This document shows, piece after piece, positions 9,878-24,353 of a stretch of 64,000 nucleotides of DNA (position 1 is the first letter of the stretch; each line of letters begins with the position of its first letter). A model generated the notes under the pieces. The model saw only the letters and a list, made by a program, of their open reading frames with translations, was not told the origin of the DNA and searched no databases. The stretch is from Trichostrongylus colubriformis (lineage: Eukaryota; Nematoda; Chromadorea; Rhabditida; Trichostrongylidae), in assembly GCA_963978905.1 (NCBI GenBank), contig OZ022257.1, positions 33,067,685 to 33,131,684 of the forward strand, written 5' to 3'. A program made the translations under genes and the position numbers.

Positions 9878-10279
9878 TGTAAGGGATTCGCCGCGTCGGC
9901 GGCGACTGGTGGTTTTTCCTTGGGATGTTTTGCCATGACTCATCTGAGCTTTTCAGGCAAGAGGAGGACGCGCGGCTCCGAGGAAGCAGCTGCCTGCACG
10001 GACCGCGGACGCTCGGGCCGTACCTCTCGATCTCTTGGGCGACGCCCTCGACAGCCATCACCATGCTCATCGGAGGATCTCCTTGTGATATCGTGCCCTA
10101 CCTTTTTGCCGATTGTTCTATTGTGCGGTACCTTTGTGCCTTTTCTCGCTTCTCTCATTGCAGATATATTCAACCCTCCTTATGTATTTGTTCATGTATT
10201 AAGGATGAATTTTGTTATATTCTATGGCTAGAGGCAGAGGCACATGAAGAGCACCTTCCGCTGGGCGCGCTCGCTTACT
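9878..10279 (+). repeat. 5' LTR of the helicase-bearing element
   Basis: It is about 402 bp, starts TGTAAGGGATTCG and ends GCTTACT. Compared with the 3' LTR I count about 13 substitutions and one 6-nt length difference. No strong TATA box is seen; an AT-rich GATATATTC lies near 10162. The end base is ambiguous by one because the T before GG may belong to either LTR or primer-binding site. Confidence 0.9.
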
Positions 10280-10296
10280 GGTAGCAGCGAGTGGTT
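10279..10296 (+). other. Primer-binding site of the helicase-bearing element
   Basis: TGGTAGCAGCGAGTGGTT starts at the LTR end, with the TGG that pairs with a tRNA CCA end. I could not name the primer tRNA. Confidence 0.6.
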
Positions 10297-11059
10297 CACC
10301 CCTCGCTTGGTGGCTGGATCGAGGGCAGGTAACTTTTCAGGTGCTTTAGCCAGCTGGGTCGGGGTGAGAAGGCGCCCCCGTCCCCTTCTGTCAGCTGGTC
10401 TTTCTACACACGTGCGAATTCGCTCACGCAGATGTCTCCGGACAAAGGACACAGTTCCATGTCTCTCTTTCCTTTAGTTTCGGTTAGGCAAGCCCTTTCA
10501 CTCATCTTTTTTGGCTGGTTCGGGCAAAGTTGAAGTGCATTTTTCAAAGCTCTTTGTTTCTTGGTAGTAGTCCTCATGGAAAAAGTCGTTTCTGAGATTC
10601 CATGATACTGTACCCTTTGTCCTTTGAACATTTTTTTAGAGATGCATGCTACCCTGGTCGGGGGTCTAAACCGATCGACGCGTCAGGATGAAAGGATTCC
10701 GAGCTCGAGGAATTGAAGGGAAGTCAGTTGTCCCACGATGGAGCCGATGAGGCTGCACCATATTGTGATTGCGTGAAATAGCCGCCAGTAATGTTGTACT
10801 TAGGTTGGGACGTTAAAAAGGAGAATTTTTGCGTCATGATGGAGTCCATCGGTGAGTTTGATGGTTGGTGCGGCCATGACATCTTTTCAGCTGCAGCTTT
10901 GTAAATAAATATATTGCGTAGCATATGATATATTTCATATATGATATATGAGCATATGATATATTTATACAAAAAGAAGAGGAGAAAAATAAAATCGTGC
11001 GAATCGCACCCAAAAAATACTAATTTTCGTTTTTTTTCAATCTGCATATCGTTTAATTG

Positions 11060-11300
11060 GATTTATTTTAAAATGACGTTTCTATGGCCCGGAGGGCCCG
11101 TTACACGGAGAACCCCTGTACCCAGACGGTCTTATGAGCGGATTTGGCCACTTGACACCTAGATGCCGTCCAGCCCGTGCATAGAGGAAAAGTGAAGAAC
11201 CAATTTCAAGCGAAGAAATGCAAGGGAGTCGAACCCTGGGGGCATGGCGAAGTAGGTATGCGTGGCAGCGGCGATCATAGCCGCTGCGCCATGCTCGATC
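11060..11300 (-). repeat. tRNA-derived SINE with Pol III boxes
   Basis: On the minus strand TGGCGCAGCGG (about 11292-11282) matches the A-box consensus and GGTTCGACTCC (about 11236-11226) the B-box consensus, with tRNA-like spacing. The 5' and 3' acceptor strands do not pair, so it is not a functional tRNA gene. The downstream part (to about 11060) would be the SINE body. It may be an insertion into the leader. Confidence 0.5.
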
Positions 11301-12085
11301 TATGTGTATCACTCAGCTGTCGGCTTGGAAGCTATTCGGAGGAAGGTGTATTGGAGCAAGTTCGTTCCCTTTAGCCACATAATCCCTTTTTTGCCTATTA
11401 TCCAAACGTTCTGTGTGCCTGTAGCATGCCACTTATCGTTGCCGGCACGTCTATGTGCGCATCTGGCAGCGCCGCGTCGATCGTACTCATCAACACTTAA
11501 GGACGCAAGATGGAACTTATTCGCCAGGATTGGGTCGCCATCACCTGCTTGCCGCCTCTCACAACAGTATGGCATTCGAATATGTAGTTGCCCAGTTTAC
11601 CCTTTTTATCCGCTCTATCCTCTAAATTGGCATTTAATCTTCTCTTCAATAGCTAACAAGTTACATTTTTCTGCTTTGTAATTTCTCCGGATATGAATCG
11701 TGCTCCTGACTCATGATCATCAAAATTCGAAATCGGTTTTTCCGGCTCAAAATATCTTTATCTCCAGCATGAGGAGCGTGCATTCCTAACATATGTTCGC
11801 AGTATATTTTTTTTTATTTTCTTTCATTCTCGTTCTCATCGCCGACTCATATAAACATCCTGTGATAAACATTCGCAGATTAAAACTGAGATAACTCTCA
11901 GCGCTAGAATTTCTCATATCTTATTTCCTTTTGTTGACATTTCATTTCATAACATCATTTTCACAGAATAAAACGGCTTGGGAAATCGGATCGAGGATTC
12001 CTTGGAATCCCAAGCCTGCCGGGATTACGGTAGCAGGCAGCCGCCTATTGGCTTGCTCCGCCTACTGACCCCGCCTTCGCCCTAA

Positions 12086-22700: not shown

Positions 22701-23854
22701 GACCTCAGTAAGGTTCTGAAATCTCTCGGCGACATCTACAGGGAGCAACTCACGGAGGAAGAGCAGGAGACATGCGCCGACTTCGCCCGCTACCGGCAAC
22801 TGCTCGAAGACTACCTTGAGCATCCCGGCGGGTCCCGGGTATGTCCGAGGAAGCAATGGACGAATATGAAATTGCGGAGCGCTCCATCTCCCGTACCCTG
22901 AAGCGCGCATGGTCCGCATTATGTTTGCGGTCCACCGCCCGTCAGTCCTCTGCATGACAACCACGTCCCTGCTAAACTCTACAGCAGGTAGGACCGGCAT
23001 CTTTACCCCCTACATCCCCACTTTCAGGACAGTCATCGGGGATGAAGCATCCCAAATACCGGAGCCCGCGCTTCTCGCCATCGTGGGTCGGCTCCGCGAC
23101 GCCCGGCACGTGTACATTGGCGACGTACGCCAGCTCGCTCCCCATGCCAAGTGCCCCCGGGAATCTACCCCCGTCCTCCATGGTGCTCGCAGCGTAATGA
23201 GCATTTTGCTCCAAGCGCCAGCTGTTCCAGTGGCCCCCTTGGTCACCACTCTCCGCGCCCACCCGGAGTTGGTAGAACTCCCCAATCGCGTCGCATACAA
23301 TGGGGCCCTCGTCAGTGGCACTCCCGCAGCCGCTCGGCAGATGTTGGTCTCAATCATCAGGTTTCCGACGCCGCACGTCCCTTCGCCTTCATCGACCTCC
23401 TGGGCGAATCGGCACGCGCGCTAGCAAATCCTATTACAATGAGATCGAGGCCAACACATGCAGGATGGTTATTCGCGAGCTCTTCCGCAAGGGCGTCCCT
23501 GCGGCGGCCATTTGCGTAATCACTTTTTACAGGGAGCAATACCGCCGCCTGCAGGAGCCGATGGCAGAATTTGGTGTGGAGCTGACAACGGTCGACTCCG
23601 TTCAAGGACGAGAAAAGGAGGTTGTTCTTTTATTGACCACAAGAACACACTTCTCTCCAGATACGGCCGATTTTCTCGACGACTACCACCGCCTGAATGT
23701 CGCCATCTCCCGCTGCCGCCAGGGGCAGTTCATCTTCGGCCACGCCGACTCGCTGAGAAAGGTCCCCACCTGGAAGCGCGTCATGGAATGGGCCGACTCG
23801 CTGAACGCCGTCGTGCCCCAGGACACGCTCACGAGGTTCTTTGGCCTCATCTAA
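19787..23854 (+). pseudogene. UPF1-type superfamily 1 helicase carried by the LTR element
   Basis: SF1B helicases unwind nucleic acid using ATP. The N-terminal third (19787 to about 20570) is low complexity, Ser/Pro-rich with RGGARGRG, and likely disordered. A middle region of unknown fold follows (about 20570-22400). Helicase motifs follow in order: Walker A FGTGKT (22491-22508), DEASQ Walker B (23041-23055), GDVRQLAP motif III (23119-23142), VDSVQGREKEVV motif V (23591-23626), RLNVAISRCR motif VI (23690-23719). DEASQ and VDSVQGRE mark the UPF1/DNA2/NAM7 branch. Frame changes near 20550, 21030, 21400, 22840, 22910 and 23400, plus a TAG at 22659, break it. It ends about 80 nt before the polypurine tract. 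Confidence 0.88.
19861..19901 (+). other. Predicted 41-nt intron in the helicase gene
   Basis: The frame from the ATG at 19787 meets a stop at GGTAAG. A GTAAGT donor (19861) and a TTCAG acceptor (ending 19901), with a pyrimidine-rich tract between, give a 41-nt intron. Its removal joins the 24-codon first exon exactly in frame to the long Ser-rich frame. A second acceptor in an almost identical context (CTCAG ending 19988) gives the same frame and the same first residues (SCGAADS), so acceptor plus exon start is tandemly duplicated. Confidence 0.5.
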
Positions 23855-23934
23855 AACCACACGGTGAGCCTTCCTTTTTCCCACTTTTCCCCTTGTTTTA
23901 CCTTCTTTTTTTAAGTCCGGGACGGACTTGGCGT

Positions 23935-23945
23935 AAAGGGGGAGG
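23935..23945 (+). other. Polypurine tract
   Basis: AAAGGGGGAGG lies directly before the 3' LTR (TGTAAG at 23946), the expected plus-strand priming site. Its position after the helicase shows that the helicase lies inside the element. Confidence 0.85.
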
Positions 23946-24353
23946 TGTAAGGGATTCGCCGCGTCGGCGGCGAAAGGTGGTTTTTCCTTGGGATGTTTTG
24001 CCATGACTCATCTGAGCTTTTCAGGGCGTGGCAAGAGAAGGACGCGCGGCTCCGAGGAGACAGCTGCCTGCACGGACCGAAGACGCTCGGGCCGTACCTC
24101 TCGATCTCTTGGGCAACGCCCTCGACAGCCATCACCATGCTCATCGGAGGATCTCCTTGTGATATCGTGCCCTACCTTTTTGCCGATTGTTCTATTGTGC
24201 GATACCTTTGTGCCTTTTCTCGCTTCTCTCATTGCAGATATATACAACCCTCCTTATGTATTTGTTCATGTATTAAGGATAAATTTTGTTATATTCTATG
24301 GCTAGAGGTAGAGGCACATGAAGAGCACCTTCCGCTGGGCGCGCTTGCTTACT
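23946..24353 (+). repeat. 3' LTR of the helicase-bearing element
   Basis: It is about 408 bp and about 97% identical to 9878-10279. It is followed by GCAG, the same four bases that precede the 5' LTR. Confidence 0.9.

Follow-up and report, generated by a model that had tools for sequence, protein, structure and literature searches.

A 64,000-nucleotide stretch of the Trichostrongylus colubriformis genome (contig OZ022257.1, positions 33,067,685 to 33,131,684; hereafter, the window) contains a Ty3-type long terminal repeat (LTR) element, which spans window positions 9878-24353 on the plus strand. Between its integrase and its polypurine tract lies a gene for a superfamily 1 (SF1) helicase resembling UPF1. 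The features of the element, with the basis of each assignment in parentheses, are as follows.

9874-9877: target-site duplication GCAG, left copy (sequence read)
9878-10279, plus strand: 5′ LTR, with edges TGTAAG...CTTACT (blastn self-match and alignment)
10279-10294, plus strand: primer binding site TGGTAGCAGCGAGTGG, sharing the last base of the LTR (sequence read)
12163-13530, plus strand: gag, with Ty3-type capsid, CCHC knuckle and, by eye, a coiled-coil tail; frame broken near the start (Pfam)
13530-15190, plus strand: envelope-like glycoprotein gene between gag and protease, limits approximate; broken (weak PF24664 match, E 0.017)
15201-16466, plus strand: protease region (Pfam aspartyl protease families, all below cut-off)
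16467-18028, plus strand: reverse transcriptase (RT) and ribonuclease H (RNase H), frame broken (Pfam RVT_1 and RT_RNaseH on 16679-18028; upstream part of RT by eye)
18029-19306, plus strand: integrase (Pfam Integrase_H2C2 and rve)
19795-23854, plus strand: open reading frame 2 (ORF2), the helicase, start approximate; with a stop and frameshifts (open frames, Pfam, homology)
22491-22508, plus strand: helicase motif I, FGTGKT (sequence read)
23041-23055, plus strand: helicase motif II, DEASQ (sequence read)
23119-23142, plus strand: helicase motif III, GDVRQLAP (sequence read)
23591-23614, plus strand: helicase motif V, VDSVQGRE (sequence read)
23690-23713, plus strand: helicase motif VI, RLNVAISR (sequence read)
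23935-23945, plus strand: polypurine tract AAAGGGGGAGG (sequence read)
23946-24353, plus strand: 3′ LTR (blastn self-match and alignment)
24354-24357: target-site duplication GCAG, right copy (sequence read)

The architecture agrees with an earlier note on this DNA, which had described paired LTRs about 97% identical, a GCAG duplication outside them, a TGG directly after the first and a polypurine tract before the second, and five SF1 motifs in order between integrase and polypurine tract. Pairwise alignment of the LTRs shows 13 mismatches over 401 aligned positions (3.2%) and 6 gap columns; a blastn self-comparison of the window pairs 9877-10280 with 23945-24354; and the duplication, the primer site, the polypurine tract and all five motifs (22491-23713) were located. 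Together with the order protease-RT-RNase H-integrase, the paired LTRs, primer site, polypurine tract and short target duplication are hallmarks of Ty3 elements. In the window, the CCHC, RT, RNase H and integrase matches exceed the curated Pfam cut-offs, while Ty3_capsid in gag stays below its own. The primer-site sequence, which we take to be complementary to the end of an initiator-methionine-type tRNA, stands directly 3′ of the LTR in the window and in four of 11 other LTR loci (L031, L033, L034 and L036); an exact-string look-up in those 11 loci and the window did not find it in the remaining seven. A TATAAAA at 12086-12092, shortly 5′ of the gag ATG and 1.8 kb inside the element, closes an unusually long leader. 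The five helicase motifs are distributed over three reading frames, and the window helicase is therefore broken; its open frame is also stopped at 22661. Frame breaks hit gag, the envelope-like gene and pol as well, and the window element is thus a decayed copy, helicase and other genes alike.

The first line of evidence that the helicase belongs to the element is its genome-wide linkage to the integrase. An open helicase piece from a second copy of the element (the C5 copy, described below) gave at least 98 genome matches, with the best 94 of 513 first-look candidates scored, and the window integrase gave at least 103, with the best 99 of 625 candidates scored; merging of neighbouring matches yielded 90 helicase loci and 87 integrase loci. 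Integrase loci were divided by identity to the query into those of the lineage (46% or more; 66 loci) and those of other Ty3 elements (32% or less; 21 loci), the line being set after the gap between them had been seen. A same-strand helicase match follows downstream, no more than 10 kb away, at 49 of the 66 scored lineage loci, compared with 0 of the 21 scored loci of other Ty3 elements, and in 39 of the 49 linked loci the spacing is 2.5-3.4 kb. No lineage integrase has the helicase on its upstream side, and one has it on the opposite strand. Dozens of loci share the gene order and have much the same spacing, which argues that the helicase is no chance insertion. Seventeen lineage loci have no scored helicase; eight of these were read, and seven contain helicase matches, which are short N-terminal remnants in L048, L049 and L051 and the N-terminal part only in L045, while tblastn found no helicase in L047.

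The second line of evidence comes from other copies of the LTRs. A genome search gave at least 47 LTR matches, fragments and the window's own two included, and the best 40 of 54 candidates were scored. Twelve stretches, corresponding to 11 loci, were fetched and compared with ten query pieces of the window element. Helicase sequence is present in eight of the 11; none of the ten pieces matched in L037, L041 and L042. Lineage gag-pol free of helicase sequence, which the earlier note had named as the contrary case (LTR copies flanking gag-pol only), does not occur among these 11 loci. The most complete of them, the C5 copy (L034 and L035), lies on another contig, has the same LTR family and gene order, and matched nine of the ten pieces. 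Between its LTRs it holds gag, the envelope-like gene, protease, RT, integrase, and three of the four main helicase pieces with part of the fourth; one short helicase piece and part of the helicase middle are missing. Its 4-bp target duplication is CATA, as against GCAG in the window, which identifies it as an independent insertion. Thus, the recurrence of integrase and helicase between matching LTRs at an independent locus, put forward as a check in the earlier note, is observed.

The remaining LTR loci are reduced. L033 and L039 contain helicase sequence with no gag or pol match, and L038 combines helicase pieces with an integrase of another Ty3 type. L031, L032, L036 and L040 are internally deleted: the integrase and most of RT are gone together with helicase motif I, and C-terminal helicase sequence is kept. 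In window-equivalent coordinates, L031, L032 and L040 run up to about 17051, then 19971-20070, then from about 23065, and L036 is joined at 16845 and 22832. The gag piece was matched in L031, L032, L034 and L036, and the protease region occupies the same position in L031, L034, L036 and L043; L031 and L036 retain the gag, envelope-like and protease regions. Identical deletion junctions occur in copies on two contigs, as if a derivative had multiplied. A 2598-amino-acid open helicase frame on C7 was set aside as an artefact, 1701 bases read of its upstream part being all N.

The third line of evidence is the shared history of the two genes. For distances and trees, 20 integrases and nine helicase partners were fetched. 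The distance comparison covered 13 elements: 11 from the window's genome (one of them deep-branch and two almost identical) and the proteins P0034 and P0035 described below, with the window copy excluded. Integrase and helicase distances are closely correlated (Mantel r = 0.944; 0 of 9999 permutations as high), which makes one gain followed by co-inheritance likely, and this is the simplest reading of these data. The two trees agree on eight of ten splits; the conflicting splits, with supports of 0.03, 0.25, 0.82 and 0.83, involve the long deep branch and the position of a single lineage. Two other-Ty3 outgroups were used for the integrase trees, while those for the helicase tree are too few to settle its root. 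Three deep-branch copies (integrase identity 45-47%) have helicase sequence in the same place: full length in L044 and partial in L046, both about 24-26% identical to the others, and the N-terminal part in L045.

The helicase is, judging by its substitution pattern, under constraint. Ratios of nonsynonymous to synonymous substitution rates for the C-terminal piece (147-150 codons; ten pairs from five copies of the window's subfamily) are 0.03-0.27, values that may be raised, since several of the five copies are dead. Between lineages, the proportion of nonsynonymous differences in four helicase pairs is 0.16-0.26 at near-saturated synonymous proportions of 0.77-0.90, and 0.13-0.19 for the integrases of those pairs. 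Many scored copies retain open frames. The earlier note had suggested looking for intact copies; nine integrase and nine helicase cores are free of stops, but all of these were picked from a list that displayed stops.

Related proteins extend the association to other species. A protein search with the helicase piece returned 32 proteins among 8000 scored candidates, and the higher-scoring named sources are Haemonchus, Ancylostoma, Oesophagostomum, Necator, Cylicocyclus and Heterorhabditis; one of the Haemonchus proteins bears the name of C. elegans C05C10.2. The longer L043 ORF2 gave 15 matches, two of them distant fungal proteins, and a search of viral contigs with P0002 gave no match. Gene models in three genera fuse integrase to helicase: P0034 of Heligmosomoides polygyrus (protease, integrase and helicase), P0035 of Oesophagostomum dentatum (integrase and helicase) and P0012 of Haemonchus contortus, which begins with a piece like the C-terminal part of the lineage integrase (37% over 106 aligned columns, E 5e-19). 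A fourth, P0042 of O. dentatum, fuses other pol parts to the helicase (zinc knuckle, RNase H and helicase; integrase absent from its domain listing). All of these cross-species models are automatic predictions. The helicase of P0046 (1202 amino acids) is 29% identical to L043 ORF2 over 98% of the searched stretch and falls in the tree outside the strongylid and Heterorhabditis proteins and inside the deep-branch copy.

Taken together, the linkage at 49 of 66 lineage loci against 0 of 21 others, the independent copy and the gene models in three genera bear out the proposal of the earlier note that a lineage of LTR elements has a UPF1-type helicase of its own. We are highly confident that the window holds a copy of a retrovirus-like Ty3 element of strongylid nematodes, about 14.5 kb long and organized as LTR, gag-env-pol, helicase, LTR, in which the helicase is a standing gene and not a passenger. 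This confidence covers identity and linkage, not mechanism.

ORF2 of the window consists of a Ser/Pro-rich N-terminal part, a conserved middle without a Pfam match, and an SF1 core at about 22400-23854. In the window copy, AAA_11 and the N-terminal part of AAA_12 fall below cut-off, and the C-terminal AAA_12 match has E 2e-27; in the homologues P0033 and P0042, both domains exceed it. UPF1 or NAM7 is the best solved-structure match for four helicase queries, which sustains the UPF1/NAM7-like half of the original description; the other half, capture from a host, is a possible origin for which no donor was traced. The scan of the L043 ORF2 set showed no Cys-His-rich Pfam domain, and some 900 N-terminal residues of L043 ORF2 have no Pfam match at E values up to 1. 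Two other classes of helicase were considered. The virus-derived SF1 type of insect retrotransposons does not fit, because PF01443 (Viral_helicase1) is not the leading domain: it scores 18.2 bits in P0033 (cut-off 21) and, with Pfam rerun on P0034 and P0042, 23.6 bits in P0034, just above cut-off, as against 116.6 and 115 bits, respectively, for PF13087. A Helitron does not fit either: Pfam scans of the window, L043 and homologues found no Rep or PIF1-type helicase domain.

The lineage has another gene, absent from the earlier note. In the window, L031, L034 and L036 an envelope-like gene separates gag from protease, and in L043 it precedes protease; its best-preserved open stretch in the window is 13980-14735. 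The L043 open frame runs for at least 1939 amino acids from the gag tail through integrase (2402 in the search listing). A simple hydropathy scan of this ORF1 gave hydrophobic stretches at 33-51 and 553-571, and the envelope-like region has 19 cysteines and six glycosylation motifs in the 620-residue stretch scanned, with a basic RRSRRS site recognized by eye. PF24664, the Monjiviricetes fusion glycoprotein, matches weakly and below cut-off in the window and L043, and exceeds its cut-off of 27 in P0051 of H. contortus (29.0) and P0053 of Caenorhabditis tropicalis (31.4), sitting in both between zinc knuckle and protease; the gag-envelope-protease order was also read by eye in P0042. By these matches the lineage is retrovirus-like, with an envelope-like gene of predicted Monjiviricetes type in an unusual position. 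In simple retroviruses env follows pol (PMC10309623, seen in part); here that slot is occupied by the helicase.

How the helicase might be expressed is suggested by its upstream sequence. In L043 its ORF is distinct from that of pol and read in another frame. Nine upstream regions were scanned for TTTCAG or TTTNCAG, which we take to be the nematode splice-acceptor consensus. With frames checked by hand, such a motif precedes the helicase-frame ATG by 49, 55 and 8 nucleotides in L035, L043 and L050, respectively, a placement with a chance of 0.011-0.027 each under simple shuffling; in L035 a stop follows further along the frame. The motif before the helicase ATG in three copies suggests that the helicase is made from a spliced 3′ mRNA. 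Programmed frameshifting between pol and helicase was rejected: the stop-to-stop frames of L043 overlap by 67 bases, but the helicase ATG lies 270 bases past the pol stop, and about 525 bases separate integrase and helicase frame in the C5 copy.

The helicase probably handles or protects the RNA of the element. The reading that we favour, with rather less than even confidence, is that it protects and escorts the genomic RNA of the element that encodes it. The helicase would bind the long unspliced genomic RNA and remodel its protein coat; the host's UPF1-type surveillance and small-RNA machinery would thereby be kept off, and the RNA would reach the cytoplasm and the particle. Its role would be the counterpart of that of CERV, the product of an extra 3′ gene, in RNA export of the Caenorhabditis elegans element Cer1. 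A more far-reaching version, which we offer tentatively and think unlikely to hold as a whole, is that of a clade spanning several strongylid genera and perhaps reaching relatives in Caenorhabditis, in which a UPF1-like helicase would be a core gene, a UPF1 mimic escorting genomic RNA past nonsense-mediated decay and small-RNA silencing, and in which the envelope would have moved into the gag-pol frame.

It should be noted that a number of observations weigh against this account. Counted from the helicase side, a scored lineage integrase lies upstream at 49 of 90 loci and is lacking at 41. The earlier note had named stand-alone helicases as contrary evidence; the 41 include the known deletion derivatives, and some helicase copies in the genome may be stand-alone. 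Most loci in the distance and tree analyses were chosen from those listed without stops and are not a random sample. Against a library of bacterial and archaeal families, the helicase scores best with TIGR00376, the IGHMBP2 family, at a level well below cut-off. The splice-acceptor motif was sought once the sequence had been looked at, which makes the result no more than suggestive; L047, L048 and L051 have motif and ATG in a frame not tied to the helicase, the window lacks the motif upstream of the helicase, the deep-branch L044 and L045 offer no clear case, and a conserved splice donor in the leader was dismissed, being present in only two of five copies. The likeness to CERV is one of position, and the case for expression, splicing and motor activity is drawn from sequence.

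The results do not separate action on the element's own RNA from two other roles. The helicase might serve copying, by opening structure in a 14-kb template, aiding strand displacement or joining the integration complex. Its persistence, about equal to that of the integrase, the unusual length of the element and the several gene models (automatic, as said) that fuse it to integrase would all suit such a role. On the other hand, the helicase of L043 has an ORF and a frame of its own, and none of the 21 scored integrase loci of other Ty3 elements has a scored helicase alongside. In the three frame-tied copies a splice-acceptor motif precedes an ATG that belongs to the helicase, an arrangement more in keeping with a regulatory product than with a subunit of pol. 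We regard a role in copying as possible, if on the unlikely side.

Alternatively, the helicase could be a dominant counter-defence factor that blocks nonsense-mediated decay or small-RNA silencing of the host in trans. The UPF1-type core is in keeping with this, and a weak suppression of silencing in plants is reported for helicases of a different class from insect retrotransposons (PMC6338049). Deletion derivatives with the same junctions at more than one locus, lacking most of pol and motif I, also suggest that a helicase product may act in trans. These derivatives, however, lack most of RT and integrase too, so that supply in trans is no clue to the helicase in particular, and the proposal is itself read from sequence. 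Such a factor seems to us rather doubtful.

A separate question is whether the source of the helicase was a virus, with RNA or DNA as its genome, rather than a host UPF1 gene. The viral type of the lineage's envelope and the weak PF01443 match, which just passes its cut-off in P0034, would agree with a viral source, but the PF13087 score there is 115 against 23.6 bits and UPF1 and NAM7 lead the solved structures; with outgroup sampling thin for the root, we consider a viral source improbable.

Finally, a nested insertion or chimeric locus, with the helicase derived from another transposon or a host gene, is scarcely credible: G+C is indeed higher over the helicase region (0.57-0.59 at 20001-24000) than over gag to integrase (0.48-0.52), and the genome has many helicase copies, with no scored integrase upstream at 41 of 90 loci, but order and spacing are common to dozens of loci with parallel trees and recur in other genera, the 49 of 66 linked loci, helicase in seven of eight misses, r = 0.944 and shared splits all oppose it, and a repeat search (minimum length 40) between integrase and polypurine tract found no inverted repeats that could mark nested ends, its sole entry being an imperfect 43-nucleotide direct repeat.

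Several other features lie in the window. A second, different Ty3-type element at 266-4963 on the minus strand has gag, RT and integrase ORFs, its integrase being about 31% identical to that of the helicase-bearing element. Directly left of the latter, a fragment at 9300-9640 reads like what we presume to be the C-terminal end of a mariner-type transposase. Further to the right lie a 403-bp inverted repeat (47518-47920 and 48057-48459, 97% identity, short spacer), beside it 344 bp (48650-48993) that equal their own reverse complement at 93%, and a 686-amino-acid open frame at 56402-58462 on the minus strand, presumably a reverse transcriptase of the long interspersed nuclear element (LINE) type.

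LTR elements with captured genes are known; what is unusual here is the type of gene, its retention across a clade and the position of the envelope. The comparisons that follow draw on the available portions of the papers cited. Cer1 is likewise a nematode Ty3 element, with CERV in the slot that the helicase occupies in the present lineage, whose envelope-like gene, moreover, sits between gag and protease. A spliced mRNA encodes CERV, and export of the unspliced genomic RNA depends on it; its ORF is described as bearing no resemblance to envelope proteins and as lacking obvious homologues beyond Caenorhabditis, and the text makes no mention of a helicase (PMC10309623). The C. tropicalis protein P0053 (2450 amino acids) combines gag, the PF24664 glycoprotein, protease, RT, RNase H and integrase in a single chain, and in the integrase tree it falls together with the clade's deep branch (support 0.94).

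Chuviruses belong to Monjiviricetes. The Anakin elements of mosquitoes share with the present lineage the combination of a retroelement with a chuvirus glycoprotein, but they are BEL/Pao and not Ty3 elements, and the available text does not mention a helicase; three other BEL/Pao elements have the envelope downstream of the polyprotein (PMC7642597). In the literature on retroelement envelopes covered here, none was found between gag and protease. Bdelloid rotifer LTR elements also have a captured extra ORF (ORF3), of GDSL, DEDDy, CC or TM type, and helicase appears once in the portion available, in a reference title (PMC5408684).

UPF1 and NAM7 are the nearest solved structures by sequence, and only the motor core aligns with the present helicase. 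No description of a Ty3 clade with a UPF1-like helicase as a standing gene was found in the literature covered, from which subscription journals and preprints are mostly absent. The Haemonchus genome paper lists a "set of helicase domains" among expanded gene groups (PMC4054779, seen in part), and some of those gene models may be pieces of these elements. If our reading is true, the lineage offers a natural tool for studying, in nematodes with their heavy use of small-RNA silencing, how retroelements contend with RNA surveillance. The nearest precedent found is that of the insect retrotransposons, which likewise encode SF1 helicases with proposed roles in replication and defence. Those helicases are of a different class, the plus-RNA virus type; they are called accessory and occur in LINEs and in some LTR-element proteins (PMC6338049), whereas the present helicase is UPF1-like, forms a large separate ORF and is kept across its clade.

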